This document shows, one piece after another, positions 29,637-44,532 of a stretch of DNA of 47,009 nucleotides. The position numbers were made by a program, and so were the translations under genes. This stretch comes from JBBIPZ01 sp037442505 [NCBI: Deltaproteobacteria bacterium] (GTDB lineage: Bacteria; CALINM01): the NCBI GenBank assembly GCA_037442505.1, contig JBBIPZ010000018.1, positions 1 to 47,009 on the forward strand, given 5' to 3'. The notes beneath the pieces are model-generated. The model searched no databases. It saw only the letters and a list, made by a program, of their open reading frames with translations, and had not been told where the DNA came from. Positions within the stretch are counted from its first letter, which is position 1. Each line of letters starts with the position of its first letter.

Positions 29637-29654
29637 AAAAACTTTAATTAAATG

Positions 29655-29683
29655 ATTTTATCTAAAGTCTCAAGAAAAATCAA
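29655..29683 (-). promoter_or_regulatory. Promoter of the unknown gene-guaB-guaA unit
   Basis: On the minus strand TTGATT (29678-29683) is followed after 17 bases by TAAAAT (29655-29660). The predicted start near 29648 is about 12 bases before the ATG at 29636. Downstream spacing suggests that transcription could run on through guaB, guaA, dnaE and the aromatic genes. Confidence 0.5.
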
Positions 29684-29707
29684 ACCGTTTTAAAATTCGA
29701 AAAAATG

Positions 29708-29717
29708 TGGCGCGCCA
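29708..29717. promoter_or_regulatory. GGCGCGCC-cored palindrome between two divergent promoters (possible operator)
   Basis: TGGCGCGCCA is a perfect 10-bp palindrome of nearly pure G+C inside a very AT-rich 136-base gap. It sits close to midway between the -35 boxes of the two divergent promoters (29683 and 29732). That position suits a shared regulator, although none can be named. Confidence 0.45.
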
Positions 29718-29731
29718 TGATTCAAAAAATA

Positions 29732-29760
29732 TTGTTTTTTTTTAACTTTTTAGGTAAAAT
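29732..29760 (+). promoter_or_regulatory. Candidate promoter of the NHL-cytochrome-secretion operon
   Basis: TTGTTT (29732-29737) is followed after 17 bases by TAAAAT (29755-29760). The start would be near 29767, about 6 bases before the ATG at 29773, and no ribosome binding site is present, so the first gene may be translated from a nearly leaderless mRNA. Confidence 0.4.
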
Positions 29761-29772
29761 TAGATAAAATTT

Positions 29773-30837
29773 ATGGTTTTTCGAGCGATATCTTTCTTAA
29801 TCTTATTCAGTATTTTAGCTGGTTGTAGCTATAAACATTTTGAAGCAAAAGCAGAACCTCTTCTGTTTTTTAAAGAGGAAGTTGGGCTTACATGGCCTGC
29901 TCCACCAGATAAGCCACGTCTAAAACTAATAAAAATTATTGATTCTCCAGCGACATTTAAAAAATCTGTGCGAATCGATACTAAAACATCTGCCTTTATC
30001 AAGTGGTTAATTGGTGAAGAGGAAGAGCCTTATAACAGTTTTGAGCGTCCTTATTTTGTTCTTTACAAAAATGATCGAATTTACATCGTTGATCAGGGAT
30101 TTTTCACTGTAATAGTTCTTGATTTAAAAGAGGCAGAAACACTTTATCTACAAAAAACTGCTGAGGGTGATATTTTGTTTTACCCCACCTCTGTAGCCGT
30201 TGATGAAGATGGCAAAATTTATGTGTGTGATCCTGAAAAAAATAGAATTGTAATTTATGACAAAAATGGTTATCCTGTAGGTAATTTTGTAGGAAATTTT
30301 GGAAACTGGAGGCCATGTAGCATCGCTTATTCGGAGAACAAAAAACGTTTTTACGTAGTAGATTCAGTTAACCACAATGTGAAAATTTTTAATAAAAATT
30401 TTGAATTGTTAAAAGTAGTGGGTGAAAGGGGAGAAGAAAAAGGGCAGTTTAGCTTTCCATCACATATAACGCTTGATAAGGATGGAAACTTTTATGTAAC
30501 GGATAGTATGAATTTTAGGGTGCAGGTTTTTTCTCCAGATGGGAGATATAAATATAAGGTGGGAGAGATTGGAAAAGGCGAAGGTTACTTTGAAAGACCA
30601 AAAGGGGTTGCTGTAGATAGTTATGGGCACTTATATATAGTTGATTCGCTCAAAGATGCTATACAGGTGTTTGATAATAATGAGAAATTCCTCATGATAG
30701 TAGGAGAAGAGGGTAGATATCCTGGGCAGTTCAACTTGCCATCGGGAATATATTGCGATGAGCAAAATTATATTTACGTTGCTGATACATTAAACAAACG
30801 GGTTCAGATTCTAAAATATATAGGGGATGGCAGTTGA
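29773..30837 (+). CDS. NHL-repeat beta-propeller lipoprotein
   Basis: A 354-residue lipoprotein. The signal peptide ends in the lipobox LAGC, with C18 as the lipidated residue. From about residue 90 to the end, repeated NHL units occur, each with a pattern like GIAVDxxGxxYVxDxxNxRVQVF (for example HITLDKDGNFYVTDSMNFRVQVF split over two strands, and GVAVDSYGHLYIVDS). They suggest a six-bladed beta-propeller used for binding. No catalytic residues are evident. Its stop overlaps the TTG start of the first cytochrome gene (TTGA), so it is probably co-translated with the cytochromes and may bind or anchor them in the periplasm or at the outer membrane. Confidence 0.85.
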   Translation: MVFRAISFLILFSILAGCSYKHFEAKAEPLLFFKEEVGLTWPAPPDKPRLKLIKIIDSPATFKKSVRIDTKTSAFIKWLIGEEEEPYNSFERPYFVLYKNDRIYIVDQGFFTVIVLDLKEAETLYLQKTAEGDILFYPTSVAVDEDGKIYVCDPEKNRIVIYDKNGYPVGNFVGNFGNWRPCSIAYSENKKRFYVVDSVNHNVKIFNKNFELLKVVGERGEEKGQFSFPSHITLDKDGNFYVTDSMNFRVQVFSPDGRYKYKVGEIGKGEGYFERPKGVAVDSYGHLYIVDSLKDAIQVFDNNEKFLMIVGEEGRYPGQFNLPSGIYCDEQNYIYVADTLNKRVQILKYIGDGS

Positions 30838-31703
30838 GGAAGTTTATTTTTTATCTCTGTTTTGTGGCTATCATAACTGTTATAAAAGGGCTATATGCTC
30901 AGGTGCCTGTTGGTGATCCTGCAAGTGTGGTTTCTTCAAAACATAATCTTTCTAAATGGGGGCCAGGGGATATCAAAGCCACAACAGAATCTCAGGTATG
31001 TAAATTCTGCCACGCGGTACATGCCGCTTCCGTCTGGCCTCTTTGGGGACACAGACTCTCTACAGCAACATACACACTTTACAGTTCTCAATCTATGAGG
31101 AGCCCAAAAACGAATCAACCCGACAAAGCTTCAAAACTATGTTTATCCTGTCACGATGGCACAATTGCTATAGGCGGGACTTTGAAAGGTGACATAACAA
31201 TGACAGACTCTGGCACAGGCAAATTAAGTGCTGGAAAACTCACTTCTACCTCTACAGCATACTTTGGAACAAATTTAAGGTCACCACAGAGTCATATAAG
31301 ACATCCTATTTCAATTGGAGTTAATCAGGACTTGATTGATGCCACAAGAAGTTATGGTGCAGCGTACATGCTAAAAACACCACTTTTAGACGTAGGTGGT
31401 AAGAAGTGTCTGGACAGGAACGCAAGTGGAACATGCACAAATCTATATCCTTTACAGCCAACTGGATACAGCTATCCAACGGGAACTGATCACGGCGTAG
31501 GTATACAATGTACAACCTGTCATGATGCGCACAATAACCAGTATGGCATGTTTATTAGAGAAACAATCTCTTTTAGTAATTTTTCCTGTGCACATTACAA
31601 TGCAACATCTGGAGGCTTTTGTGCGCATTGCCATGAACAAAGACCTCCCACCACTTTATATAACCAACCCGGAAATCCTTACAATCAGGGGAACCCATGG
31701 TAA
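30834..31703 (+). CDS. Multiheme c-type cytochrome with four CXXCH sites
   Basis: A 289-residue secreted protein. The start is TTG (30834-30836) with an AGGGGA ribosome binding site, overlapping the previous stop by 4 bases. A signal peptide ends at about LYA (22). Four canonical heme motifs are visible: CKFCH (56-60), CLSCH (103-107), CTTCH (226-230) and CAHCH (263-267). CHDAH and CHAVH match the doubled CXXCH style in which the second His can be a neighbouring axial ligand. The long gap between hemes 2 and 3 is Ser/Thr/Gly-rich. It is likely periplasmic or surface-exposed. The stop overlaps the next cytochrome start. Confidence 0.88.
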   Translation: MRKFIFYLCFVAIITVIKGLYAQVPVGDPASVVSSKHNLSKWGPGDIKATTESQVCKFCHAVHAASVWPLWGHRLSTATYTLYSSQSMRSPKTNQPDKASKLCLSCHDGTIAIGGTLKGDITMTDSGTGKLSAGKLTSTSTAYFGTNLRSPQSHIRHPISIGVNQDLIDATRSYGAAYMLKTPLLDVGGKKCLDRNASGTCTNLYPLQPTGYSYPTGTDHGVGIQCTTCHDAHNNQYGMFIRETISFSNFSCAHYNATSGGFCAHCHEQRPPTTLYNQPGNPYNQGNPW

Positions 31704-32782
31704 AAATAAAAAATATCTTGGGATGCTTATATCTTTTTTTCTTTGCTATCTCTTATGCATACACTCCAGATGAATTTCAAAGACTTTTAACAAAACTGCC
31801 TTCCCATAACCTCACCCAAAACAACCCGAATGGATGCAAAACCTGCCACGGCGGGTTAGCATATACAGGCGGAGAAGAGGAAGAACTCTGCTACACCTGT
31901 CATGGCAAAGAAGCCAAGGTGACCCATAAACATAGAAAGGCAAAATTAAAAAGACAGGAAGGCATAGATGTAAGATCAGACTTTGAGAAACCATACCATC
32001 ATCCGGTAGAAAAAACTGGCTTACATAGGGATAAAGAGAACTACCCCGTTCTTGACCCAAATGTACCAAGACATTCGGAGTGCCTTGACTGTCACGATCC
32101 ACATTATTCTATACCTGAGCTTCCTTTGCTTGGCGTAAGTGGCATTTCTGCTGATGGGAAATTTAACACTGTAAATTATGGCGAATATGAAGTTTGCTTT
32201 AAATGTCATGGTGCTGATGCAAATAAACCATTCTATCAAAAAAACAAGGTGAAAGAATTTTCTCCCGATAACCCATCGTTTCATCCAGTCGTAGCTCAGG
32301 GAAAAAACAACTACCTGCCAAGCCTGAAAAAAGGGATAACTTACGAAACAATAATATCCTGCACGAGCTGTCATGGAAGTGATACAATAGGCAGAGGATT
32401 TGTACGGGGAGTTCACGGATCTACTAACGAATACATCCTTGTCCTGCCATACACAAAAACCGAAGAAAGCCTTTCACCTCGCTATGACCTGTGCTATAAA
32501 TGTCACAGAGAGAACAGTATCCTTGGTAATCAGAGCTTTCCATATCACAGACAACATATAGAAGGTGTTAAAGCAAAAAACTGGAAAGGCACTTCCTGCA
32601 GTACATGTCATAACTCTCACGGTTCAACAAACTACAAGTTTTTAATCGATTTTAATCCCGATTATGTAAAAAAAGACGAAATAACACAAAGACTGGAGTT
32701 TAAGTCTGATGGTTTATTTAAAGGCAGTTGTTATTTAAAATGTCACAATATCAACCATAGTCCAAAGACATATGGACAATAA
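31697..32782 (+). CDS. Multiheme c-type cytochrome, seven CXXCH plus one CX3CH
   Basis: A 361-residue protein with a signal peptide ending at about SYA (21). Heme motifs are CKTCH (47), CYTCH (65), CLDCH (129), CFKCH (167), CTSCH (222), CYKCH (266), CSTCH (301) and an atypical CYLKCH (345-350), a CX3CH spacing. Paired motifs such as CHDPH and CHNSH match the doubled CXXCH group. Eight hemes in about 340 residues is a dense packing typical of electron-conducting cytochromes. AGGGG lies 5 bases before the ATG, and the start overlaps the previous stop by 7 bases. Confidence 0.88.
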   Translation: MVKIKNILGCLYLFFFAISYAYTPDEFQRLLTKLPSHNLTQNNPNGCKTCHGGLAYTGGEEEELCYTCHGKEAKVTHKHRKAKLKRQEGIDVRSDFEKPYHHPVEKTGLHRDKENYPVLDPNVPRHSECLDCHDPHYSIPELPLLGVSGISADGKFNTVNYGEYEVCFKCHGADANKPFYQKNKVKEFSPDNPSFHPVVAQGKNNYLPSLKKGITYETIISCTSCHGSDTIGRGFVRGVHGSTNEYILVLPYTKTEESLSPRYDLCYKCHRENSILGNQSFPYHRQHIEGVKAKNWKGTSCSTCHNSHGSTNYKFLIDFNPDYVKKDEITQRLEFKSDGLFKGSCYLKCHNINHSPKTYGQ

Positions 32783-32793
32783 GGGGGTGGAAG

Positions 32794-33180
32794 ATGGCAA
32801 AAATAGTTGCTGTTATTCTGCCTATCATTTTAGTCATTTTAAATGTTTTTTTAGTTTACGCAGAAAGTGATAGTGTTAAACCTTTCTCTCATTTTTCTAG
32901 CGATAATTGCAGCGTATGTCATTTAAGCCACAGTGCAAAGTCACTTACCAAAGACCCAAATTCAATTTGTAAAGGTTGTCATCCCATGTCTCACGAAAAA
33001 GATCATAAGGTGGGCATAAAGACAAAGCTTAACCGTGCAAATCTTCCTCTTGATAGCGAAGGCAGGATTGTGTGTGCTTATACCTGTCATAATATGCACC
33101 CAGAAAAAGGCTCTACTTTTGAAAAAAATCTTTTGAGGACAGACCCAGATACACTCTGTCTTTCATGTCACGAAAAATAG
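32794..33180 (+). CDS. Small tetraheme c-type cytochrome, three CXXCH plus one CX3CH
   Basis: A 128-residue protein with a signal peptide ending at about VYA (23). Heme motifs are CSVCH (39-43), CKGCH (59-63), CAYTCH (94-99, CX3CH) and CLSCH (122-126). CHLSH and CHNMH give close second histidines. The ribosome binding site AGGGGGTGG precedes the ATG. It is the last cytochrome of the set; the next gene encodes the GspF-like membrane protein, whose start is 2 bases after this stop or inside this gene. A periplasmic electron shuttle role is plausible. Confidence 0.86.
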   Translation: MAKIVAVILPIILVILNVFLVYAESDSVKPFSHFSSDNCSVCHLSHSAKSLTKDPNSICKGCHPMSHEKDHKVGIKTKLNRANLPLDSEGRIVCAYTCHNMHPEKGSTFEKNLLRTDPDTLCLSCHEK

Positions 33181-33182
33181 CT

Positions 33183-34385
33183 ATGCCTTACTACAACTGT
33201 AAAGTTGCAGATACAAAAGGAAAAGTAAGCATTATTAAATATCATGCAAACTCTATTGAAGATGTAAAAACTCTTGTCCAGAGAGATAACTACCTGTTAC
33301 TTGAATGTAACGAGGTGTACAACTTTTCCCCCAGATCGCGAAAAAAGCTTGATATAAGAGATTTTATAACGTTCAATCAGGAATTGTTTGTATTAATTAA
33401 GTCGGGCCAATCACTTGTCAAGTCACTCGAAATCATTCTCGAAAAGCTGGAAAACAAAAACAAGTTTTACAAAGTTTTAGAGATAGTAAAAAAAGACGTT
33501 CAACAGGGAAACTCTCTTTCAGACGCTTTAGAAAGGCACACAGACTATTTCCCTACACTTTATATTGCTAATGTAAGAGCCGGAGAAAAAGGCGGCAACT
33601 TAGTAGAGAGATTAAAAGATTACCAGATATACATAAAAAAAATGGATGAACTTCAAAGAAAGATTGTGTCTTCTGCAGTTTATCCAATCGTTATACTTAT
33701 TGTGATTATTATAGCAGTGACATTTTTATTTACCTACGTAATACCAAATTTTAGCAAAATTTATTTAGACGCTAAAGTAGAATTACCACTAATAACAAAA
33801 ACAATGCTTCTAATAACAGATATGTTTCGTTATTTGCTGCCATTTTTCATATTTTCTGGCTTTCTGTTATTTTTTGGCTATCGTAGTTACACAAAAAAAA
33901 CTGAAGGTCGTTTACTTATTGACCGTTTAAAACTAAACATTCCCTTTGTATCTCCAATATACAAAAACTACTTATTGTCAAACTTTTCAAGAACTTTATC
34001 AGCTATTCTGAAAGGTGGAATACCACTGGTTGCCGCATTAAAAACAGCAACTGGTGTTATAGACAATGCCTATTATGCAGCCAAACTCAACGAAGCAACA
34101 AAAAAGGTTGAAGAGGGAAATTCACTTTCATCATCACTGGAAGAGACAGGACTGTTCCCTTCCATTGCCGTAAGGCTTGTAAAGGCAGGCGAAGGCACCG
34201 GTGAATTATGGACAATGCTTGACGAAGTATCTGATTATTATGATACACTTGTTAATGATGCTTTAACAACTTTGACGACGCTGGTTGAACCAGCTCTTAT
34301 GATAGTGATGGGAGTTTTGGTTGGCACTATAGTTATTGCGATGTATTTACCCATTTTCAGTCTTGCAACAGCGGTAGGAGGCTAA
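33183..34385 (+). CDS. gspF: GspF/PilC-like inner-membrane platform protein
   Basis: From the chosen ATG at 33183 (MPYYNCKVAD, the usual GspF-type opening) the protein has 400 residues. An ATG at 33165 inside the cytochrome gene would add six residues. There are two T2SSF domains: the first contains GQSLVKSLEIILEKL and NVRAGEKGGNLVERL, the second GGIPLVAALKTATG and KAGEGTGELWTML. Three membrane segments are visible, including VYPIVILIVIIIAVTFLFTYV and the C-terminal MIVMGVLVGTIVIAMYLPIF. It forms the inner-membrane platform that the GspE ATPase works on. Confidence 0.93.
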   Translation: MPYYNCKVADTKGKVSIIKYHANSIEDVKTLVQRDNYLLLECNEVYNFSPRSRKKLDIRDFITFNQELFVLIKSGQSLVKSLEIILEKLENKNKFYKVLEIVKKDVQQGNSLSDALERHTDYFPTLYIANVRAGEKGGNLVERLKDYQIYIKKMDELQRKIVSSAVYPIVILIVIIIAVTFLFTYVIPNFSKIYLDAKVELPLITKTMLLITDMFRYLLPFFIFSGFLLFFGYRSYTKKTEGRLLIDRLKLNIPFVSPIYKNYLLSNFSRTLSAILKGGIPLVAALKTATGVIDNAYYAAKLNEATKKVEEGNSLSSSLEETGLFPSIAVRLVKAGEGTGELWTMLDEVSDYYDTLVNDALTTLTTLVEPALMIVMGVLVGTIVIAMYLPIFSLATAVGG

Positions 34386-34386
34386 T

Positions 34387-36096
34387 TTGAGAAAAAGAAT
34401 TGGGGAAATGCTGGTAGAAAAAGGATTGCTTAACGAGACATTATTAAAAAAAGCGCTCGAAGAGGCTCAAAGTAGTAAAGAAAAATTAGGCACAATTCTG
34501 ATAAAAAATGGCTATCTTAGTGAGCCTGACTTTTACAAAACACTTTCTGAGCAGCTTCAGATACCCTATGTTGACCTCACAAATTATGTGATTCCAGAAA
34601 GTTTGCCAAAAGAGATAGATTTTGAGCTGTTCCAGAAATATCACTGTGTATTTCTTTATGAGAAAGATAAAAAATACTATTTTGCCTTTGTTGATCCAAC
34701 AAGGGTGATGGATTTTGACGAAATTTATCTGATTCTGGGTAAACCAATAGAGCCTGTCGCTGCACCAAAGTCACAAATAGATAAAATTCTAAAACGCCTC
34801 GAAGGCACATCAAGGGTGCTGGAAGAAATTACAGAAGACTTTAGAGTTCTGCTTGTAAAAGAGACTGACGAGGGCGAACAAATACTATCGTTGGAAAAAC
34901 TATCTGAAGACTCGAGTCCTGTTGTAAAACTTGTTGATACTGCAATTTACGATGCTTTAAGAAAAAGGGCAAGTGATATCCACATAGAGTCATCTCAGGA
35001 TGGTGTTGTGATTAAATTTAGAATAGATGGCATTTTACAAAAGGCGGTCGGTCCTATAGACTTAAAATACCAAAACAATATTATCTCAAGAATAAAGGTA
35101 ATGTCTGACCTTGATATTGCGGAACAAAGAATTCCACAGGATGGAAGATTTAAACTGCGTATAGGCTCAAAATCTGTTGACTTCAGGGTGTCTATACTAC
35201 CCACCATCTTTGGTGAAGATGCTGTGATAAGGGTGCTGGATAAAGAAAGCATTATGTTAGACTTAAAAAGCTTAAGTTTAGATTTGCTGGGATTTGACAA
35301 TGACCTGATAACAACATTTCGCAAAAAGATTAGAGAACCTTACGGAATGATACTTGTGACGGGTCCCACTGGTTCCGGAAAAACAACCACACTTTACGCT
35401 GCAATTAGCGAAATAAATACGGGTGAAGACAAGATTGTTACCATAGAAGACCCTGTAGAATATCAGTTAAGAGGCGTAGTCCAGATACCTGTAAATGAGA
35501 AGAAAGGCTTAACATTTGCAAGAGGATTGCGTTCAATACTTAGACATGACCCCGACAAAATAATGGTTGGAGAAATACGTGATGCTGAAACAGCTCAAAT
35601 TGCTATACAATCCGCACTCACAGGACATTTAGTCTTCACAACTGTTCATGCAAACAATATCTTTGATGTTCTGGCAAGATTCCTGAATATGGGCATAAGT
35701 ACTTATAACTTTGTTTCGTCATTAAACTGTGTTCTTGCACAAAGGCTAATTAGAAGTATTTGTAAAAATTGTAAAAAACCTGTAAATTATATCAAAGATT
35801 ATTTAGAATATTCAGGCATTGATCCCGATAAATTTAAAGATTTTGTGTTTTACGAGGGTGAAGGTTGTGAAGAATGTTCTCAAACAGGTTATAAAGGAAG
35901 AATAGCAATAGGCGAGCTGCTTGTGCTTAACGATGAGATAAAAGAGATGATTATAGACAAAGCTCCCATTCAGGTTCTGAAAAAAAAGGCGGCCCAGATG
36001 GGGACGATATTTTTAAGAGAGGCTGCTAAAAAGAAGGTTTTTGAGGGATTAACGACACTCAAAGAAATTAATAGAGTAACTTTTTCGGAGCAGTAA
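34387..36096 (+). CDS. gspE: GspE/PilB-like assembly ATPase with MshEN-type N-terminus
   Basis: A 569-residue ATPase. The start is TTG (34387-34389) with GGAGG about 5 bases before. Two N-terminal MshEN-like motifs occur (RIGEMLVEKGLL at about 4-15 and KLGTILIKNGYL at about 33-44, each followed by spaced Leu/Phe and Gln), a pattern known to bind c-di-GMP in MshE. Walker A is GPTGSGKT (326-333). The Walker B region includes IMVGEIRDAETA, with an Asp box and His box (TTVHANN). A four-cysteine zinc site lies near the end (CKNC, CEEC). It powers pseudopilus assembly at the inner membrane. Confidence 0.95.
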   Translation: MRKRIGEMLVEKGLLNETLLKKALEEAQSSKEKLGTILIKNGYLSEPDFYKTLSEQLQIPYVDLTNYVIPESLPKEIDFELFQKYHCVFLYEKDKKYYFAFVDPTRVMDFDEIYLILGKPIEPVAAPKSQIDKILKRLEGTSRVLEEITEDFRVLLVKETDEGEQILSLEKLSEDSSPVVKLVDTAIYDALRKRASDIHIESSQDGVVIKFRIDGILQKAVGPIDLKYQNNIISRIKVMSDLDIAEQRIPQDGRFKLRIGSKSVDFRVSILPTIFGEDAVIRVLDKESIMLDLKSLSLDLLGFDNDLITTFRKKIREPYGMILVTGPTGSGKTTTLYAAISEINTGEDKIVTIEDPVEYQLRGVVQIPVNEKKGLTFARGLRSILRHDPDKIMVGEIRDAETAQIAIQSALTGHLVFTTVHANNIFDVLARFLNMGISTYNFVSSLNCVLAQRLIRSICKNCKKPVNYIKDYLEYSGIDPDKFKDFVFYEGEGCEECSQTGYKGRIAIGELLVLNDEIKEMIIDKAPIQVLKKKAAQMGTIFLREAAKKKVFEGLTTLKEINRVTFSEQ

Positions 36097-36956
36097 TGCA
36101 AAATGTTATCATAATAGACAAAGAAAACATTTACTTTTTACGGGGTGAAAAAAAACAATCACTTTATAGCATCTTAGCACTTCACACTCTAAAGTGCCAG
36201 GACGCCCATATATATAGTAGAGAGGGTAATGAGCTAATCCTCTCTGAGGACTGTTTTGGTGCAGCTATAAAACTCTTTCAGAAAAAGCTGGGGATAACTT
36301 TAAACGAGTTTAAGATAGTTTTACCTCATGCGATAACATGGTTTAGTTTACTGGATGTAGAAGAAATACCAAAAGAACAAAATGAGGCAGAAGAATTCAT
36401 AATATGGAAAGCACAAAAGATAATTCCGATATCACCAGAACAGGTGATAATCAGACACCAGATTCTGTCAAAAAACAAAACAAATACCAAACTATTGATC
36501 ACTGCAACATTCAGAAGTTTTATAAAATCCATAGAGACATACTTGAAAAAAATTGGAATACTTCCAACGTTCATCACCCCACCAACTATCGCTTTTTTAA
36601 ATATATTTGAAAACAGCCTCCCAGTAGAAGGCATTATATGTTGGTTAAGAGAAACTGCTTACTCTATGATTTGTTTCCACGAAGGAATACCTGTAGTTAT
36701 TAGAGAAGTTGACAGAGAAATCAACTTAAACAGAATAGAAGGCGAGCTTTACAGCTTTGCACAGTCTATAAAAGATTCTTACCCCGAGTATAACAGTGAA
36801 ACAGTACTATACTTCGACGAACTGCAAAGAAATGAACTAAAAACTACCTTTGGGCTAATCGCAAAAGAGTTGGACTACAAAAAACTTGTTCAAAAGATAG
36901 ACAGCAATATTGTAGATTTACCGATGTATATTTCTGCCTTAGGATTGTTAGAATGA
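36096..36956 (+). CDS. PilM/GspL-like cytoplasmic assembly protein
   Basis: A 286-residue protein without membrane segments. The pattern KIVLPHAITWFSLLDVEEIP followed by a glutamate-rich helix and WKAQKIIPISPEQVIIRHQIL matches the actin-like PilM/GspL-cyto family, although similarity is weak and nucleotide motifs are not obvious. It would link the GspE ATPase to the PilN/PilO-like membrane proteins encoded next. Start and previous stop overlap by one base (TAATG), with GGAG before it, and the next gene overlaps by 4 bases. Confidence 0.72.
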   Translation: MQNVIIIDKENIYFLRGEKKQSLYSILALHTLKCQDAHIYSREGNELILSEDCFGAAIKLFQKKLGITLNEFKIVLPHAITWFSLLDVEEIPKEQNEAEEFIIWKAQKIIPISPEQVIIRHQILSKNKTNTKLLITATFRSFIKSIETYLKKIGILPTFITPPTIAFLNIFENSLPVEGIICWLRETAYSMICFHEGIPVVIREVDREINLNRIEGELYSFAQSIKDSYPEYNSETVLYFDELQRNELKTTFGLIAKELDYKKLVQKIDSNIVDLPMYISALGLLE

Positions 36957-37507
36957 AATACAGGATCAATTTTGCTACCTACGACAGAGAAAAGGTTCTA
37001 CGTGCACGAAAAATAAAACTGCTATTGTTTGCATGTATCTTTGTGCTGTTTATCACCTTTATAATGGGGCTAAAAAGGACAACAGAAACAAATACTGAGC
37101 TAAACAATGTAAAAAAGAGAAAAGAAGAACTAATTGAAAAAAAGGAACGACTGCTAACAGAAAGACGCAAACTTTTAAGCGACACAGAGGTGCAGTTACT
37201 TGATGCAAAGCTAAGCTTTTATACAAACACATTTCTAAATAGACTTTATGTTAGCTCTTACCTTAACTACTTGGAGGATAAAACGCCTTCAAATATATTT
37301 TTAAAATCTGTTGACTTTGATGCCAATAGAAAAAGTTTTATTATAACTGGAGAATGTTTAAATCCAGAAGCTGTAGCAAACTACATAACGTCACTACAGT
37401 CAGTTAACTTTATTAAAAAGGTTCAAATTACAAAACAGACCTTTCAGAGATTGGGTGAAAAGAAGTTACTTGTTTCAGAATTTGAGTTGAGGGGAGATGT
37501 TTTTTGA
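36953..37507 (+). CDS. PilN-like inner-membrane assembly protein
   Basis: A 184-residue bitopic protein. A short cytoplasmic N-terminus (RINFATYDREKVL) resembles the INLLP-type PilN start that docks on PilM. A transmembrane segment spans about 21-39, followed by a Lys/Glu-rich coiled coil (about 45-85) and a small periplasmic alpha/beta domain. Order PilM-PilN-PilO-PilP matches type IV pilus and T2SS alignment complexes. Overlaps the PilM-like gene by 4 bases (ATGA) and the next by 4 (TTGA). Confidence 0.75.
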   Translation: MKYRINFATYDREKVLRARKIKLLLFACIFVLFITFIMGLKRTTETNTELNNVKKRKEELIEKKERLLTERRKLLSDTEVQLLDAKLSFYTNTFLNRLYVSSYLNYLEDKTPSNIFLKSVDFDANRKSFIITGECLNPEAVANYITSLQSVNFIKKVQITKQTFQRLGEKKLLVSEFELRGDVF

Positions 37508-38007
37508 AAAAGATACTTACTGTTCTGGCGATTTTAGTTTTAATCAATATTTTTGTGTGGTTTATCTATTTACCACATAACGAGAATAAATTAGGTGACG
37601 AACTTGTTTTATACAAAAATTTACGGCAGGAACTCGTCTCAAGTAAATTACTTACATTTGAAGACATTTATCGTATGCGGGACAAGCTGGGTGATATCGA
37701 AAAAAGGTTGCGTTCTCAAAAAGATTTTTCAAAACTTATCACATATATATTTGAGCAATCAATGTCTGCAAATGTAGATATCAAAGATGTAAACTATAAT
37801 TTTGAAGAAAAGAAAGAACTAAAAATATCCAAACTCACACTTCAGCTAAATACAGAGGGCAGTTATAATAATTTAAGAAGGTTCATTTACAAAATAGAAA
37901 CTGGAACACACCTATTTCAGGTTGAAAACGTTAAAATAACAAGAGGATTACAAAACGTAACGGCTTATATAACACTTACTTCTTACTTAAAGGCAGAACA
38001 ACAATGA
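37504..38007 (+). CDS. PilO/GspM-like inner-membrane assembly protein
   Basis: A 167-residue bitopic protein. The start is TTG (37504-37506) with a GAGGGGAG ribosome binding site about 9 bases before, overlapping the PilN-like stop. A transmembrane segment lies at about 4-20, then a coiled-coil stretch, then a ferredoxin-like periplasmic domain (about 80-165) containing ADIKDVNYN-type beta strands. Size and position fit PilO/GspM, the partner of PilN in the inner-membrane ring. Confidence 0.72.
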   Translation: MKKILTVLAILVLINIFVWFIYLPHNENKLGDELVLYKNLRQELVSSKLLTFEDIYRMRDKLGDIEKRLRSQKDFSKLITYIFEQSMSANVDIKDVNYNFEEKKELKISKLTLQLNTEGSYNNLRRFIYKIETGTHLFQVENVKITRGLQNVTAYITLTSYLKAEQQ

Positions 38008-38582
38008 ACAAAAAGAAACTGGTTGCCATACTACTTGGTGTTATATGGTTGATTCTATTGATAGATAGATTCTTGCTTTCGGATCAAAAAAATAGATCAA
38101 TTGAGCTCACCTCAAGCCAGCGTGAGACATCGATAAAAAAAGATAAAGAACTTCACACTCTTAAAAACCTTCAGTATCCAGAGCTTAAGCTCGCTATAAT
38201 CAGGAAAGACCTTTTTGATTCCCCGTTCCAATCTATGGCAGATAATAAGGAAGAAAAAGAGACAAAAAAGGTAATTACATTGCCAGCTCCCCCATTACCT
38301 ATACTTCCAGAGCCAAAAAAACCTGAGATTCAAAAACAATCTGAAGACATAAACGATCCTTCAAAAGAACTTGTGTTACTTGGCGTGCTCGAAAAACGAG
38401 GCAAAACTTTAGCTTTCATTAAGTACCAGAAAGAGATCAAGCCTTTTAATATTGGTCAAGAGGTGTTTGACACAAACTTTTTTGTTGAAAAAATTGGTGT
38501 TAAAGTTGTTATACTAAGAAATAAAGCAAACGAAGAACTAAAACTCGAACTTGAAAAAGAGGAAAACGATGGCAAAAAATAA
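38004..38582 (+). CDS. PilP/GspC-like periplasmic connector
   Basis: A 192-residue protein with an N-terminal transmembrane anchor (about 4-22), a flexible Lys/Pro-rich linker around residues 85-115 (PAPPLPILPEPKKPE), and a C-terminal small beta domain (about 125-185: LVLLGVLEKRGKTLAFI, then KPFNIGQEVFDTNFFVEKIG). This is the layout of the homology region of GspC/PilP, which binds the secretin N0 domain. No PDZ domain is present. It overlaps the PilO-like gene by 4 bases and the secretin gene by 14. Confidence 0.78.
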   Translation: MNKKKLVAILLGVIWLILLIDRFLLSDQKNRSIELTSSQRETSIKKDKELHTLKNLQYPELKLAIIRKDLFDSPFQSMADNKEEKETKKVITLPAPPLPILPEPKKPEIQKQSEDINDPSKELVLLGVLEKRGKTLAFIKYQKEIKPFNIGQEVFDTNFFVEKIGVKVVILRNKANEELKLELEKEENDGKK

Positions 38583-40863
38583 ACTTATTCTGCTAAGCCT
38601 GTTAGTTTTAACATTGTTAATATCTGCTGGATGCTCTTCATATCAAGCATATAAAAAGGCAGAGAGCTTGATGCTGGAAGGCAAGTATGATGAAGCCATA
38701 ACCTACTATAATAAAGCACTCTCACAAAAACCGGGCGAGTTAGAATACTCGATAAAGCTATCTCGTGCAAAAGATGCAGCTGCTCAACAACATTTTCAAA
38801 AAGGGAAAAAATTCTTTGATGAAAATAACTTAGATGAGGCTGAAAAAGAGCTCAATCTAACTCTTGTTCTTGACCCGACCTTCAAAAGGGCCGTTCAGAT
38901 GTTGCAGGAAATAAAAATAAAAAAGGAGGCTACAGAAAGTTTGGCAAGAGCAAAGACATTTGCTGCTGGTAATAAAGTTAAAGAGGCTATAGAAGAGGCG
39001 AAAAAGGCTTATTCCCTCAATCCTCAATTAGAAGAAGCGAAAAAACTCATGGATAGTTTGTCAAAAAGTGGTGCAAAAAGTCCACTTGAATATGAGTTGA
39101 ACATAAAATCCTCAAAACCTGTCACACTCAAATTTAAAGATGCAAACCTTAAAGAAGTCTTTGAAGTTCTTTCAAAACTCTCTGGTATCAATTTCGTTTT
39201 TGACGATTCTGTAAAAGATACGAAAATCACATTTTTCATAGAAGACGCATCTTTTGTCCAAACATTAGAACTTCTTCTTTTTACAAACAAATTGGCGCTA
39301 AAGATAATAAACCCCAAAAACGTCATTGTTTATCCCGACAATAAACAGAAGAGAAAAGAGTATGAAGAATACTACATAAAAACCTTCTTTTTAAAGTTTG
39401 CTGATGCGAAAAAAATTATAAACACCATACGCAATCTTGTTGAAGCAAAACAAATATTTGTCAATGAGGAGCTAAACGCTATAGTATTAAGGGCAGATGC
39501 AGACTCAATCGCATTGGCAGAAAAAATAATAGAGGCAAATGACATTCCAAAGCCAGAGGTTGTGATGGATTTAGAATTTATAGAAGTAAACAGAAACGAC
39601 CTCCAACGTTTAGGACTCGATTTCTCTCCCAACCAGATGCAGTTTGGTTTTGGCAAAGGTAGTAAACCAACTACAATTGTAGCTTCGGGATTTGAAGGCA
39701 CTCCAGATCTTGTCAATATAAGAGATTTAGAAGTTGCTAAACTTAATAGAAATATACTCTTTACACTCCCCACTATCACACTTAACTTCCTCAAGCAAAA
39801 TGGTGTTACAAAAAGTTTGGCAAATCCACAGTTAAGGGCGCTTGATGGTGCAAAGGCTCAGGTACATGTCGGTGACAGGGTTCCAGTGATAACAGTCACT
39901 GTGAGTGGAGCTGATCAACGCTCAGAAAATGTCCAGTACGTGGATGTAGGCGTCAAATTTAATGCTGAACCAAAAATTATATCTAACGACGAGATAGAGT
40001 TAAAGATAGAGGCAGAGGTAAGTAACATCATCAGTAAAGAAACAACACAGGGTGGAAAAGGAAGCACCGTTTACAGAATAGGTACAAGAAACGCAAAGAC
40101 TGTACTAAGACTTAAAGATGGCGAATCCACGGTTCTTGGTGGCCTTATCCAGAACAGAATAGAAAAAACAAAAAAAGGTATAGCATTTTTAAGCGACATA
40201 CCAATAATAGGAAACCTGTTCACATACTATGCCGACAGCACAGACCAGTCAGACATTTTTATATCAATTACTCCACGCATTTCAAAGGGTATAGTTTATC
40301 CATCAAGAGACGCTGCCTATATCTGGTCTGGCACAGAAGAAAGATTAGCCTCCAAACCAGTCTTCCAGTCTTTTACAGAAGGGCAAACACAACAGATAAC
40401 AGACAAGCCCAAAGAAACAACCGGTATAAAAGAAAAACCCGAAGGCGAATTTAAATCTGAAAACGCATTTTTGGCAACAATATCACCAGAATCAATAAAA
40501 GTAGGGGAGACAGCTGATATAGATATAGTTATGAATGGTTTACCTTCGGTAGTTGAATTCGAAGTTGCTGGAAATGTAAATTTTGCGTTCGTTGAACCGG
40601 TTAAGTTTACAGAAGCCTCCATTGCTACAAGCGACGAAGATATATACAAAGCTAACTTTGACAACAAATCTGGCTCTTTCTCTATATTTGCTAAACTTTC
40701 AAAAGAGATAACAGGAAGTATATCTATTGGCAAAATAACAATTAAAGGTAAAAACAAGGTTGCGGGTGCAGAACTAATAAATTTAGGACAGTGTAAAATT
40801 AAGACTTCTGATGGTAAGGTTTACTATCTAAAGAGTTATAATGCGTTTATGGAAGTAAAATGA
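38569..40863 (+). CDS. gspD: Lipoprotein secretin (GspD/PilQ family) with TPR repeats and extra C-terminal beta domain
   Basis: A 764-residue protein from the ATG at 38569, chosen because AGAGG precedes it and MAKNKL begins the signal peptide; a TTG at 38551 would add six residues. The lipobox SAGC gives C22. TPR-like helices span about 25-160 (for example LMLEGKYDEAITYYNKAL). Secretin N0/N1 domains follow (LKFKDANLKEVFEVLSKLSG, FFLKFADAKKIINTI), then the secretin core (VHVGDRVPVI, DVGVKFNAEP, LRLKDGESTVLGGLI, PIIGNLF). The last 130 or so residues after a linker look like a cohesin/Ig-type beta sandwich. It forms the outer-membrane pore. Confidence 0.92.
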   Translation: MAKNKLILLSLLVLTLLISAGCSSYQAYKKAESLMLEGKYDEAITYYNKALSQKPGELEYSIKLSRAKDAAAQQHFQKGKKFFDENNLDEAEKELNLTLVLDPTFKRAVQMLQEIKIKKEATESLARAKTFAAGNKVKEAIEEAKKAYSLNPQLEEAKKLMDSLSKSGAKSPLEYELNIKSSKPVTLKFKDANLKEVFEVLSKLSGINFVFDDSVKDTKITFFIEDASFVQTLELLLFTNKLALKIINPKNVIVYPDNKQKRKEYEEYYIKTFFLKFADAKKIINTIRNLVEAKQIFVNEELNAIVLRADADSIALAEKIIEANDIPKPEVVMDLEFIEVNRNDLQRLGLDFSPNQMQFGFGKGSKPTTIVASGFEGTPDLVNIRDLEVAKLNRNILFTLPTITLNFLKQNGVTKSLANPQLRALDGAKAQVHVGDRVPVITVTVSGADQRSENVQYVDVGVKFNAEPKIISNDEIELKIEAEVSNIISKETTQGGKGSTVYRIGTRNAKTVLRLKDGESTVLGGLIQNRIEKTKKGIAFLSDIPIIGNLFTYYADSTDQSDIFISITPRISKGIVYPSRDAAYIWSGTEERLASKPVFQSFTEGQTQQITDKPKETTGIKEKPEGEFKSENAFLATISPESIKVGETADIDIVMNGLPSVVEFEVAGNVNFAFVEPVKFTEASIATSDEDIYKANFDNKSGSFSIFAKLSKEITGSISIGKITIKGKNKVAGAELINLGQCKIKTSDGKVYYLKSYNAFMEVK

Positions 40864-41333
40864 GATGCAAGGGGATCACCTTAATAGAGCTTGTGGTAGC
40901 CGTAGCAGTGCTTGCAATTTTAGCATCTGCGGTTTTTCCTGTAGTCAAAATGACTGTCAAGAGACAAAAGGAGCTTGAACTAAGAAACAATTTAAGAATT
41001 ATCAGAAAAGCAATAGATGACTATAAAAAGGCTTATGATGAAAAAAAGATACAACAAAAATTAGGGGCATCGGGCTATCCGTCGTCGTTAAGGGAACTGG
41101 TAGAAGGGGTTGACGATTTAACATCTCCAGAATATGGTAAAAAATTAGTGTTTTTACGGAGGATACCTCGAGACCCTTTTAACGACAACAAAGATTTAAA
41201 ACCTGAGGAGACGTGGGGAATAAGAAGCTATGGCAGCCCTCCTGATGACCCAAAAGAAGGTGAAGACGTTTACGATGTGTATTCTTTAAGTGAGGAGAAA
41301 GCGATTGACGGCACATACTATAAAGATTGGTAA
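40860..41333 (+). CDS. Type II pseudopilin (GspG-like)
   Basis: A 157-residue pseudopilin. A very short leader MRCKG is followed by the prepilin peptidase site G/ITLIELVVAV, with the conserved Glu at position 5 of the mature protein. A hydrophobic helix and then an amphipathic helix follow, and the C-terminal domain has PRDPFNDNKD and ends in YYKDW, a GspG-like pattern. No prepilin peptidase gene is in the window. It overlaps the secretin gene by 4 bases and the next pseudopilin gene by 29. Confidence 0.88.
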   Translation: MRCKGITLIELVVAVAVLAILASAVFPVVKMTVKRQKELELRNNLRIIRKAIDDYKKAYDEKKIQQKLGASGYPSSLRELVEGVDDLTSPEYGKKLVFLRRIPRDPFNDNKDLKPEETWGIRSYGSPPDDPKEGEDVYDVYSLSEEKAIDGTYYKDW

Positions 41334-41703
41334 AAACCAGAAAGGTTTTACACTAATAGAGTTAATCATAGTTATGACTATCATAGGGATATTACTAACT
41401 ATTGCCCAGCCAACGTATAAAAGTTCGATAATCAGGGCAAAAGAAACCGTTCTTAAAGAAAACCTATTTGCAATGCGTAGTGCAATAGACCAGTATTATG
41501 CTGATAATGGTATTTACCCACCTACTCTTGACGAACTTGTCACAAAAGGTTATCTCCGTAACATCCCTAAGGATCCTTTTACAAACTCAAACACCACCTG
41601 GATTTTAGTAACACCACCTCGTCCTGAAGAAACTGGCATTTACGATATAAAAAGTGGTAGCAACGAACGAAGTTTAACAGGTACACCTTACAGTGACTGG
41701 TGA
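41305..41703 (+). CDS. Type II pseudopilin (GspG-like), second copy
   Basis: A 132-residue pseudopilin from a TTG start at 41305-41307, chosen because GAGGAG (about 41292-41297) lies at good distance; a GTG at 41290 would add five residues. Leader of about 11 residues, then cleavage site G/FTLIELIIVMTIIGIL with Glu5. The C-terminal domain shows the GspG features YYADNGIYPPTLDEL, IPKDPFT and the ending YSDW. The two adjacent GspG-like genes probably arose by duplication and divergence. One may be the major pseudopilin. Confidence 0.87.
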   Translation: MTAHTIKIGKNQKGFTLIELIIVMTIIGILLTIAQPTYKSSIIRAKETVLKENLFAMRSAIDQYYADNGIYPPTLDELVTKGYLRNIPKDPFTNSNTTWILVTPPRPEETGIYDIKSGSNERSLTGTPYSDW

Positions 41704-42151
41704 GCGAGGCTTTACTTATATTTTTGTTTTGATAATACTCATTTTCATTGGAGTAGGTCTTGCTACAACTGGAAAAGTTTGGTCTGTAGTAGTTCAGCGT
41801 AATAAGGAAGAAGAATTGCTGTTCCGTGGTGATCAGATTGTAAAAGGTATAGAGAGTTATTACAAAAGCTCACATGGTGGAGGTAATTTTTTGCCACGCA
41901 AATTAGAGGATTTGATAAAAGACAATCGCTTTTTGACAGTTAAGCGGCATCTAAGAAAACTCTACAAAGACCCAATGACGGAAGATGGTGAATGGGATAT
42001 TATCAGAGACGAACAGGGTAGAATAAAAGGTGTAAGAAGTAAAAGCGAAAGAGAGCCTTTAAAGAAAAAATTTTTTCCGTTAGAATATAAACATTTTGAG
42101 GACAAAATGAGATACAAAGATTGGGAGTTTGTATTTGTAATCAAAAAATAG
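41693..42151 (+). CDS. Atypical minor pseudopilin-like protein lacking Glu5
   Basis: A 152-residue protein from a GTG start (41693-41695) that overlaps the previous gene by 11 bases. The N-terminus MTGERG/FTYIFVLIILIFIGVGL resembles a prepilin signal and helix, but position 5 after the expected cleavage is Phe, not Glu. The rest is basic and contains SYYKSSHGGGNFLPRKLEDLI and a C-terminal YKDWEFVFVIKK. Lack of Glu5 is known in tip pseudopilins such as GspK, so it could cap the pseudopilus; it might also be an inner-membrane anchored accessory protein. Confidence 0.7.
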   Translation: MTGERGFTYIFVLIILIFIGVGLATTGKVWSVVVQRNKEEELLFRGDQIVKGIESYYKSSHGGGNFLPRKLEDLIKDNRFLTVKRHLRKLYKDPMTEDGEWDIIRDEQGRIKGVRSKSEREPLKKKFFPLEYKHFEDKMRYKDWEFVFVIKK

Positions 42152-42161
42152 AGAGGTAATT

Positions 42162-43538
42162 ATGCAAAGAGTGTTAGTAATTGATGATGAAAAGCTTATA
42201 CTCGATATGATAAAATCAAAGTTAGAAAAATCCAACTTCGACGTGACAGCTACAAACAGTTCAAAAGACGCCATAAAACTCTTAGATTTAATGGACTTCG
42301 AAGTTATACTTCTCGATTTAATGATGCCAAACATCACCGGACTTGAACTGCTTCAGATGATAAAAGAAAAAAAGAGTGACATTCCTGTGATTATGATAAC
42401 AGCACACGGTAGTATAGATACAGCTGTTAAAGCTATGAAATTAGGGGCTTATGACTATCTAACAAAACCATTTTCAATGGAAGAATTAATATTAGTTGTA
42501 AGCAACGCTATTAAATATAAACTGACATCAGAGGAACTTAAGTTTTACAAAAAAGAGTTCAAATGCAATTATGGTCTACAGATGATAATAGGCAAAAGCA
42601 AAGCAATTACAGAGTTAAAATCACTCATCAAAAAAGTGGCAGAAGCAGACGTTAAAGTAATTCTTATAGAAGGCGAAAGCGGTACCGGAAAAGAGCTTGT
42701 AGCTCGGGCAATTCATGCAGAAGGCGAAAGATGCAAACACCCATTTGTTGCGATAAACTGTGCATCTTTGCCAGAAAATTTACTTGAGAGCGAGCTTTTT
42801 GGTCACGAAAAAGGCGCATTTACAGACGCAAAGACTGCAAAAAAAGGTTTGATAGAGTTTGCCGATAAAGGCACATTATTTTTAGATGAAATTGGCGATA
42901 TGCCATTAAACTTACAGGCAAAGATACTAAGATTTTTAGAAGAACGAACAGTTAGAAAGTTAGGTGGACTTGTGGATTTAAACGTAGATGTTCAGGTAAT
43001 AGCCGCCACAAATAAAAATCTAAAAAAACTTGTTGCCGAAGGAAAGTTCAGGGAAGACCTTTTTTACAGGATACAGGTTGTTCCTATCGTTGTGCCGCCA
43101 TTGAGAGAAAGGAAGGAAGACATCTTAGAAATTGCAAGATTTTTTATTGGTGCCTTCAATAACGAGTTTAAAAAAAGCATCAAAGGTTTTTCTCCTATTG
43201 CCGAAAAACTAATGGTTCAATATGACTGGCCCGGCAATGTTCGTGAATTAAGAAATTCTGTTGAACGTGCAATGATATTTGAAGATTCAGATATGATAAA
43301 AGTGGAAAGACTTCCAGTTGAAATAATAACCATTTCCTCCAGGCAACCATCACCAACTGCAAAAAACATTGATTTTAAAATTCCACCAAACGGTTTAGAT
43401 ATAGAAGAAGTAGAAAAGGAACTGATTAAACAAGCTTTATCCATCACAAAAGGTAATCAGTCAAAGGCAGCAAGGTTATTAAACATTGGGGTAGATGCGA
43501 TGCGCTATCGGATGAAAAAGTTTGGGCTTTTAAACTAA
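42162..43538 (+). CDS. Sigma-54-dependent response regulator (NtrC family)
   Basis: A 458-residue three-domain regulator. The receiver has D8-D9 and phospho-acceptor D52 (VILLDLMMP). The AAA+ domain has Walker A GESGTGKE (171-178), the sigma-54 contact loop as GAFTDA (218-223, a common variant of GAFTGA), LFLDEIGD and the arginine-rich end (NVRELRNSVERA). The C-terminal Fis-type helix-turn-helix is QSKAARLLNIGVDAMRYRMKK. It begins 10 bases after the last pseudopilin gene with GAGAGG before the ATG, so it is likely part of the operon. I found no convincing -24/-12 promoter in the nearby gaps. No partner kinase is adjacent. Confidence 0.92.
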   Translation: MQRVLVIDDEKLILDMIKSKLEKSNFDVTATNSSKDAIKLLDLMDFEVILLDLMMPNITGLELLQMIKEKKSDIPVIMITAHGSIDTAVKAMKLGAYDYLTKPFSMEELILVVSNAIKYKLTSEELKFYKKEFKCNYGLQMIIGKSKAITELKSLIKKVAEADVKVILIEGESGTGKELVARAIHAEGERCKHPFVAINCASLPENLLESELFGHEKGAFTDAKTAKKGLIEFADKGTLFLDEIGDMPLNLQAKILRFLEERTVRKLGGLVDLNVDVQVIAATNKNLKKLVAEGKFREDLFYRIQVVPIVVPPLRERKEDILEIARFFIGAFNNEFKKSIKGFSPIAEKLMVQYDWPGNVRELRNSVERAMIFEDSDMIKVERLPVEIITISSRQPSPTAKNIDFKIPPNGLDIEEVEKELIKQALSITKGNQSKAARLLNIGVDAMRYRMKKFGLLN

Positions 43539-43558
43539 ACTTTTACTCCATGGCGTCT

Positions 43559-43622
43559 ACCTTTTAAAAAGGTGGGACATAACCTTTACACTTCCCCCTT
43601 TGGGAAAGGGGGATTGAGGGGG
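43559..43622. repeat. Paired intergenic hairpins (possible repeated element)
   Basis: In the 118-base gap after the NtrC-type regulator lie two hairpins: ACCTTTTAAAAAGGT (43559-43573, 7-bp stem) and CCCCCTTT-GGG-AAAGGGGG (43594-43612, 8-bp perfect stem), followed by ATTGAGGGGGAA. No U-run follows either, so they do not look like standard terminators. The G/C-run pattern stands out in this AT-rich DNA and resembles dispersed intergenic repeats; copy number cannot be tested here. Confidence 0.4.
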
Positions 43623-43656
43623 AACTAAAAAAACTTTACTTCAAACAGGAGGACAT

Positions 43657-44532
43657 ATGAAAAAACTTGTCATTATCCTATCTTTACTGCTCTTACCATC
43701 ACTAACATTGGCATCCACAGAAAAGTTTGACGAAGCCTTCAAAAAGGCAGAAGCGGCTATAGCATCAGAACAAAACAAAGGTTTAAAAAGCTACATCTGC
43801 GACATAAAGACAACACAATTTGACACAATGATGAAAAAAATGACCTCAGCCATGCCAGAAAACCTGCCCCGTCCTGAAAAACCATCGATAAAAAAATACT
43901 GGGACAAAAACAAAGGAATGATTATCAGATTAGAAGGCAAAAATTTATTTCCATACATGCAACAGGTGTCACAAAAAATGTCAGAACAGTTTGCATTAGA
44001 CCTTTATGGTTACTTTTTACCTTCTCAAACAAAAAAACTCCGTCACAAACTCCTTAAAGATGCTGACAAACAGTTAAAGATTATAAGTGGCTATCATCGT
44101 TTCACAATTACATTCAAAGCAAAGACAGACATAAAGATGGCTTTCTTCAAAGGAGGTCTACCTATCCCAACAAATGACGTAAAATCAATAACGATAAGCG
44201 TTGACATGGAAAGAAAGCTTGTTAAAGACATCTACATCAAATACGACAAAACAGAAGGTTACCAGGAATATAAACTACTTGCAGAATACAAAAAAATTGA
44301 GGACAAATACTTTCTTTACAATCTCTACATGATGTCAGACGACCACTCAGTAATGATTGGATTTAGAACCGATTTTGACAAAATTGATGGCTACATCCTG
44401 CCTGTTAAACAGATACGCACAGGTGAAGGTTCGGAAATACCCGAAGAAGAAAAAAGGATAGAAGTAGAGTTTACCAACTATAAAATTAACGCTAATATTC
44501 CTGCTGCAATGTTTGGGAAAAAGAAAAAATAA
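43657..44532 (+). CDS. Secreted protein of unknown function, possibly LolA-like fold
   Basis: A 291-residue protein with a clear signal peptide (KKLVIILSLLLLPSLTLAS, cleavage after about 20). No cysteine cluster except one Cys near residue 48. The C-terminal two-thirds alternates beta strands (HRFTITFKAKTDIKMAFF, SITISVDMERKLVKDIYI, EYKLLAEYKKIEDKYFL), which suggests an outer-membrane lipoprotein-sorting-like fold; this is inference from pattern only. The end is basic (GKKKK). A strong AGGAGG precedes the ATG. fdhD starts 2 bases after its stop. Confidence 0.72.
   Translation: MKKLVIILSLLLLPSLTLASTEKFDEAFKKAEAAIASEQNKGLKSYICDIKTTQFDTMMKKMTSAMPENLPRPEKPSIKKYWDKNKGMIIRLEGKNLFPYMQQVSQKMSEQFALDLYGYFLPSQTKKLRHKLLKDADKQLKIISGYHRFTITFKAKTDIKMAFFKGGLPIPTNDVKSITISVDMERKLVKDIYIKYDKTEGYQEYKLLAEYKKIEDKYFLYNLYMMSDDHSVMIGFRTDFDKIDGYILPVKQIRTGEGSEIPEEEKRIEVEFTNYKINANIPAAMFGKKKK

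Follow-up and report, generated by a model that had tools for sequence, protein, structure and literature searches.

A passage of a 2025 review calls the crossing of the outer membrane by multiheme cytochromes and cytochrome nanowires unresolved (PMC12307469). Here, we describe an operon at positions 29773–43538 of a stretch of 47,009 nucleotides, hereafter “the window”, from the Deltaproteobacteria bacterium JBBIPZ01 sp037442505 (assembly GCA_037442505.1, contig JBBIPZ010000018.1). The operon encodes an NHL-repeat lipoprotein, three multiheme cytochromes (cytA, cytB, and cytC), and a type II secretion system (T2SS). On balance, we consider it probable that the operon represents a cytochrome module for extracellular electron transfer together with a dedicated Pul/Oxp-type T2SS that delivers it to the cell surface.

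The Pul-type T2SS of Geobacteraceae is described, in passages of PMC3543383 and PMC10599522, with the pseudopilins PulG, OxpG, and TklG and with the multicopper oxidase OmpB as a reported secreted protein; Mehta 2006, as cited in a passage of PMC3543383, belongs to the same literature on the Geobacter Pul/Oxp machine. The names GSU1785 and GSU1787 are given to cytochromes in published passages. In Shewanella, according to passages of PMC1974784 and PMC12175506, the T2SS exports MtrC and OmcA, T2SS mutants lose surface MtrC, and transfer of the Shewanella T2SS into E. coli places MtrC on the surface, so that a T2SS step of this kind is possible for multiheme cytochromes. For the nanowire cytochromes OmcE and OmcS, an interface heme with a ligand supplied by the adjacent subunit is reported as a common feature, and OmcS is said to have no sequence homology with OmcE (passages of PMC12954529). 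The Pul/Oxp machine, the export of cytochromes by the Shewanella T2SS, and OmcE are therefore already known.

Gene Content of the Operon

The 15 genes all lie on the + strand in the order NHL, cytA, cytB, cytC, GspF, GspE, four genes like PilM, PilN, PilO, and PilP, secretin, three pseudopilins, and an NtrC-type regulator. The original prediction, made from the letters of the window, had this order, the strand, and the coordinates right and counted 14 genes. It described the junctions as mostly overlaps of 1–14 bases or small gaps, and with first-start calls adjacent genes overlap by as much as 44 bases or are separated by as much as 11. GspF may start at 33165 (an overlap of 16) or at 33183 (a gap of 2, the start taken in the original prediction), and either is possible. 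The features are as follows.

29773 to 30837, + strand: NHL beta-propeller, predicted lipoprotein (Pfam NHL 97.5 bits, cut-off 20; LAGC at residues 15–18)
30834 to 31703, + strand: cytA, tetraheme cytochrome of the OmcE family (PDB 7tfs, OmcE, E = 2.1e-18; signal peptide by eye; no lipobox)
31697 to 32782, + strand: cytB, octaheme cytochrome (PF22113, MtrC/MtrF-like, 49.5 bits, cut-off 30; signal peptide by eye; no lipobox)
32794 to 33180, + strand: cytC, small tetraheme cytochrome (three CXXCH and one CX3CH)
33165 to 34385, + strand: GspF, platform protein (PF00482 179.5 bits; best NCBIfam match TIGR02120, GspF, 297.6 bits, under its cut-off of 424)
34387 to 36096, + strand: GspE/PilB-type assembly ATPase with N-terminal MshEN (PF00437, PF05157; NF053729 57.7 bits, cut-off 38)
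36096 to 36956, + strand: PilM-like protein (GspL cytoplasmic part), a weak call (TIGR01175 E = 0.012, under the cut-off; relatives have homologues in the corresponding position)
36953 to 37507, + strand: PilN-like protein (PF05137 29.4 bits, cut-off 22.8)
37504 to 38007, + strand: PilO/GspM-like protein (PF04350 28.7 bits, cut-off 22)
38004 to 38582, + strand: PilP/GspC-like connector, a weak call (PF11356 25.8 bits, cut-off 27)
38551 to 40863, + strand: secretin, predicted lipoprotein with N-terminal TPR (PF00263 139.2 bits; TPR_2 38.1 bits; lipobox LISAGC read from the sequence)
40860 to 41333, + strand: pseudopilin A, GITLIE (PF07963 29.9 bits, cut-off 21.2)
41290 to 41703, + strand: pseudopilin B, GspG-like, GFTLIE (PF07963 42.4 bits; PF08334 at the cut-off)
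41693 to 42151, + strand: pseudopilin C, GFTYIF, a weak or positional call (prepilin motif read; no Pfam or NCBIfam match)
42162 to 43538, + strand: NtrC-type response regulator with sigma-54 activator domain (Pfam, above cut-off)

The heme counts of four, eight, and four proposed for the cytochromes were borne out, with four CXXCH motifs in cytA, seven CXXCH and one CX3CH in cytB, and three CXXCH and one CX3CH in cytC. Among stop-to-stop frames of at least 80 amino acids, these three are the only ones in the whole window with a CXXCH motif, and the clustering of the cytochromes is thus not a matter of chance. The window NHL protein has a WPAPPDKPR stretch with a similar counterpart in its relatives, as seen in the N-termini of 59 module NHL proteins including that of the window.

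The Secretion Machine

By its predicted proteins, the machine is a Pul/Oxp (“atypical”) T2SS of the Geobacteraceae kind. A GspE-type ATPase, GspF, a secretin, and two pseudopilins with prepilin motifs are all present above the Pfam cut-offs; under the NCBIfam equivalog models, GspE, GspF, GspD, and GspG stay below the cut-off, as expected for an atypical system. In the platform, the PilN-like and PilO-like proteins pass the Pfam cut-off, and the PilM-like and PilP/GspC-like proteins are under it. No retraction ATPase (PilT) was found among the 15 genes of the operon.

A search with GspE returned at least 593 relatives, from which the best 80 were taken. In a tree of 53 GspE sequences, the window and 39 records of Desulfuromonas/Geobacter type, or others of that phylum, form one clade (Shimodaira–Hasegawa-like approximate likelihood-ratio test, SH-aLRT, 97) separate from the GspE of Nitrospirota and Acidobacteriota. 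This is the grouping predicted by common descent of the window machine and the Desulfuromonas/Geobacter machine, in a tree made by a quick method and with a long window branch. The link to Oxp-type pseudopilin clusters of Geobacter made in the original prediction proved right in kind, both by the GspE tree and by the Pul/Oxp T2SS of Geobacteraceae in passages of PMC3543383.

The MshEN domain of GspE passes the NCBIfam cut-off for cyclic di-GMP binding (57.7 bits against 38), and the machine may therefore be switched by cyclic di-GMP through this predicted domain. Pseudopilin C has no Glu at position +5 (GFTYIF in the window; GFTYIL in both relatives read, L018 and L025), which suggests a special, perhaps tip, subunit.

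Conservation of the Cytochrome–Secretion Pairing

The coupling of cytochrome and secretion genes is conserved, and their adjacency in relatives is not rare, as seen in a sample of 244 genomes from the class of a Geobacter-type relative. A cytB match at E ≤ 1e-80 was found in 80 of these genomes, with one match each among the eight scored candidates. Four of the 80 loci are cut by contig ends, with fewer than 600 bases behind cytB, and are not assessable; in 66 of the remaining 76, GspF lies directly after the cytochromes, including one locus in which cytA and cytB are fused (L266) and one with cytB in two frames (L279). The order NHL-cytA-cytB is kept in 73 of the 80 loci, and a cytC gene with 3+1 hemes follows cytB in 22. 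The number of best candidates scored per genome was five in a phylum sample of 395 genomes, ten in Nitrospirota, and eight in the 244-genome class, and the genome counts are accordingly lower bounds. The Desulfobacterota phylum sample contains a cytB relative at E ≤ 1e-30 in 38 of its 395 genomes, and the best 12 of the 38 all read NHL-cytA-cytB-[cytC]-GspF. Among 17 hand-chosen locus genomes, cytB (E < 1e-165, one match) is present in 10/10 with a coupled locus and in 0/7 of the others, three of which hold distant relatives (E from 1e-11 to 3e-45). No cytA match was found on the Deferribacter plasmid NC_013940. The GuaB protein of the window shows 63–73% identity to its counterparts in 12 genomes of three other phyla, consistent with a phylum separate from these.

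The rule that the module never occurs without an adjoining T2SS held for all of the first 12 loci and was abandoned when the larger sample gave ten exceptions in 76. Eight of these ten exception genomes hold a GspE of this type elsewhere (67–73% identity), with GspF directly before GspE in each. At loci L238, L242, and L254, a prolyl isomerase precedes NHL-cytA-cytB with no adjoining T2SS, and a GspF-GspE pair lies elsewhere in the genome. At another exception (G758, contig C93, L278), cytB is broken by six stop codons and two GspE of this type remain.

Seen from the machine, the GspE clade includes 29 loci among the best 80 of the at least 593 relatives; 27 are assessable, with the cytochromes directly before GspF in 13 and absent in 14. 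Four loci counted as lacking the module (L028, L031, L032, and L033) are rearranged or partial. This ratio of 13 to 14 derives from the GspE search, as genomes picked by cytB are uninformative on the frequency of T2SS without the module. The other 51 of the best 80 loci have no cytB (0/51); 13 of them are in the GspE tree and the remaining 38 were excluded on the basis of their record titles, and in all 29 of 67 loci without cytB are in the tree. On the GspE tree, the “with cytochromes” state switches as many as ten times, an overcount because L002 and L026, where GspF is at the contig edge and the upstream side is not assessable, were labelled “without”. The module is present in both the window and L148, the two lineages that branch deepest in the clade, and the simplest reading is that the pairing is probably old in this clade and was lost repeatedly.

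Identity of the Cytochromes

The protein cytA matches OmcE (PDB 7tfs) with E = 2.1e-18 across residues 17–250, and a profile of the T2SS-linked cytA sequences matches OmcE at 4e-35. Four CXXCH motifs and the further histidines H37, H63, H157, and H233 are invariant in 12 cytA sequences, enough for four predicted bis-histidine hemes. The first reading of cytA as an OmcE orthologue was ruled out by a tree of 76 OmcE-family domains, in which the T2SS-linked cytA and the cytA parts of fused 12-heme proteins form one set (SH-aLRT 96, plus one standalone row) and OmcE falls in another. By its place in the tree, cytA is a homologue of OmcE and a paralogue rather than an orthologue. This tree was made without L013 and two partial proteins, and loci L081–L118 were skipped as second copies; the cytB tree was also made without L013.

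All heme motifs of cytB are invariant in 13 sequences. A search of the PDB gave no relative of note for cytB (best E = 0.21), and the MtrC/MtrF-like family PF22113 matches it with 49.5 bits (cut-off 30) and cytA with 21.3 bits, under the cut-off.

The NHL-cytA-cytB Module in Other Lineages

Elsewhere, NHL, cytA, and cytB recur as what is, from gene order and homology, a module, either split (Nitrospirota) or with the cytochromes fused into one 12-heme protein (other Desulfobacterota), mostly with 11+1 hemes. In 9/9 fused proteins examined, the N-terminal part corresponds to cytA (independent E-values of 1.9e-42 to 2.5e-49) and the rest to cytB (8.7e-53 to 4.9e-107), and NHL lies just before the fused gene in 17 of 18 loci. 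The fusion in relatives points to cytA and cytB as one unit in a 1:1 ratio.

Regions of 12–20 kb were fetched for non-T2SS matches, 20 regions for 21 of the 29 in Desulfobacterota and 20 of the 33 in Nitrospirota. A phmmer search with the window proteins (E ≤ 1e-3) found a T2SS gene in 0/40 of these regions. The 20 Desulfobacterota regions contain further cytochromes, with a separate OmcE-like gene in 18. In Nitrospirota, cytB relatives occur in 29 of 198 genomes, and the 20 regions divide into 17 with NHL-cytA-cytB, two with NHL-cytB-cytA, and one fused. Acidobacteriota have a relative in 12 of 149 genomes, and no T2SS gene was found in the three regions read. At the Nitrospirota loci L199–L202 and L205–L209, there are also NHL-matching proteins of approximately 800–1060 amino acids and frames with up to 34 CXXCH motifs.

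Upstream of NHL, frames of 593–697 amino acids are present in all seven regions inspected (of the 40). Five of the seven were scored for alternating strands and gave 2.4–3.2 per 100 amino acids, compared to 0.6–1.7 in six window proteins; the counts in two frames were 19 and 17, compared to shuffle means of 8.0 and 8.4 and maxima of 14 and 16. Searches with Pfam (three frames) and NCBIfam (four of the seven) assigned none of these barrel candidates to a family. From its length, position, and strand alternation, the upstream frame is a putative outer-membrane barrel, and we infer that the clusters with such a frame are porin conduits sharing NHL-cytA-cytB with the window. Of the 22 distinct T2SS loci scanned, 11 have a SurA/PPIC-type isomerase gene in front of NHL, with some contigs too short for a verdict, and such a gene also occurs in 15 of the 40 non-T2SS regions; none was found in the window.

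Proposed Function and Alternative Explanations

In the proposed mechanism, Sec would export the cytochromes, hemes would be attached in the periplasm, and cytA and cytB would fold as one unit, which the pseudopilus would push, perhaps along with the NHL lipoprotein, through the TPR-secretin to the surface. The NHL lipoprotein would be a surface partner that may anchor or seat the cytochromes, and in other lineages the cluster of the same module has, where inspected, a putative outer-membrane barrel in place of a T2SS. Among the Desulfuromonas/Geobacter relatives, the module is seldom found without the machine, whereas the machine often lacks the module, an asymmetry that fits a passenger (or partner) and its carrier. 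Among the options offered by the original prediction, movement of the cytochromes to the surface by the machine is best supported; the coupling on which it was built is conserved, and the export itself is what we infer.

Several observations weigh against this explanation. Ten of the 76 modules lie apart from a T2SS, and two of those ten genomes have no such GspE at E ≤ 1e-150. In Nitrospirota and in other Desulfobacterota, the module has no T2SS close by, and the T2SS is thus not needed everywhere; conversely, the machine is without the module in about half of the assessable loci (14/27). Unlike MtrC, cytA, cytB, and cytC have no lipobox, and the AlphaFold models of cytA and cytB are too poor for use (predicted local distance difference test scores of 42.3 and 39.8). 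The window cytA and cytB lie on long branches and their place inside their own set is not settled, so that common descent of the coupling stays unproven for the window. Moreover, the Pul/Oxp machine has another reported substrate, OmpB (passages of PMC3543383 and PMC10599522), and in D. ferrophilus, deletion of putative surface cytochromes of NHL clusters left Fe(III) oxide reduction unimpaired (a passage of PMC9769857).

Some of these points would also be expected if the cytochromes were not cargo, an explanation that we find unlikely, if by no means negligible. In that case, cytA-cytB-cytC would form a relay from periplasm to surface and have only their regulation in common with a T2SS that exports, for example, a multicopper oxidase, and co-transcription would reflect a joint need in metal respiration. 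The T2SS loci without the module (14/27), the absence of lipoboxes, the lack of a nearby T2SS in 40/40 fetched regions of other clusters, and the secretion of OmpB by the T2SS reported in Geobacter (passages of PMC3543383 and PMC10599522) all favor such a relay, whereas the near-fixed position right before GspF across divergent genomes (66/76) speaks for cargo. The putative barrel beside the module elsewhere, where inspected, also suggests an outer-membrane home for the cytochromes. It is rather improbable that cytA, with or without cytB, polymerizes into a conductive filament extruded by this T2SS, and it is just as doubtful that NHL is the outer-membrane seat of such a filament and the prolyl isomerase found in half of the relatives scanned its folding factor. 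If true, the window lineage and its Desulfuromonas/Geobacter relatives would have in common a system for nanowire secretion that differs from the barrel clusters. The homology to OmcE (E = 2.1e-18) and the retention of heme motifs and further histidines, including an N-terminal KHNLS, are consistent with a filament, but in the tree cytA lies with the 12-heme fusions (SH-aLRT 96) and not with OmcE, and a protein that joins cytA to cytB implies one copy of each per unit, not a homopolymer of cytA. Pseudopilin deletions in D. ferrophilus abolish short straight filaments that were conductive in earlier work, although the make-up of these filaments is unknown according to their own authors and they are not tied to this family (passages of PMC9769857). 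An isomerase gene lies before NHL in 11/22 T2SS loci, and an osc gene is described for OmcS folding (a passage of PMC13194489), but the window has no such isomerase. The original prediction also offered a pseudopilus that holds the cytochromes at the cell surface for extracellular electron transfer; such a pseudopilus would remain assembled as a scaffold and keep the cytochromes in place as an electron path through the envelope. As a rule, pseudopili are short, dynamic structures, and beyond the gene coupling itself no specific sequence feature favors this scaffold, which we regard as very improbable.

Regulatory and Flanking Features

An NtrC gene was not seen behind the pseudopilins in the regions of relatives. 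A sigma-54 promoter before NHL was considered and rejected, as positions 29637–29772 contain none at ≤2 mismatches and the window has 24 matches where 19.5 are expected. A terminator scan of 29500–44600, which has little power (seven sites compared to 9.2 in shuffles), lists none at the junction of cytC and GspF. An inverted-repeat-like stretch (CCCCCTTT...AAAGGGGG) at 43580–43630, behind the NtrC gene and ahead of the gene that follows, is a possible end of the operon and is not among the sites of the terminator scan. The flanking genes at 28761–29636 (− strand) and 43657–44532 (+ strand) match no Pfam family above cut-off. No outer-membrane barrel family was found by Pfam among the 15 operon genes, and beyond the operon, at 45510–46868, there is a Porin_4-like frame (26.1 bits, cut-off 27).

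Comparison With Known Systems

In the literature searched, which covers subscription papers little, neither a coupling of NHL-cytA-cytB to a Pul/Oxp T2SS nor a swap of this arrangement for barrel-type clusters was found described. What appears new is an OmcE homologue that is not an orthologue, cytA, in the operon and the recurrence of NHL-cytA-cytB as a module, fused or split, in T2SS-free clusters. An operon that joins a secretion machine to the cytochromes it likely carries, and that numerous Desulfuromonas/Geobacter relatives retain, cultured ones among them, offers a direct way to test how surface electron carriers get outside. The same module without a T2SS elsewhere, with a putative barrel where read, would be a natural swap of delivery route, testable by single gene deletions.

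The window operon resembles the Geobacter Pul/Oxp T2SS in having GspF, GspE, PilM-P-like proteins, a secretin, and three pseudopilins in a single run, and GSU1785 and GSU1787 presumably adjoin pulF in G. sulfurreducens. However, the cargo reported for the Geobacter machine is OmpB, and NHL-cytA-cytB in front of the machine is not described in the passages concerned. As with MtrC and OmcA of Shewanella, a T2SS is predicted here to put multiheme cytochromes on the surface, but the Shewanella proteins are decaheme and MtrC is lipid-anchored, whereas the window cytA and cytB are without a lipobox and lie in one operon with the machine; we take the MtrC/OmcA genes to lie apart from the T2SS genes in Shewanella. 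The likeness of cytA to OmcE consists of homology over nearly the full length, four hemes, and conserved further histidines, whereas cytA has its own branch of the tree and, in the window, a partner, cytB. The osc operon for OmcS nanowires (Shen 2025, cited in passages of PMC12977616 and PMC13194489) likewise combines cytochrome genes with proposed export and folding helpers, but is not described in those passages as a T2SS. Multiheme cytochromes with an outer-membrane barrel, as putatively in the barrel-type module clusters, are found in the Oet porin-cytochrome conduits (passages of PMC10553843), and multiheme cytochromes with NHL genes in the D. ferrophilus clusters (passages of PMC9769857). 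Unlike both, the window operon has a T2SS and no barrel gene.

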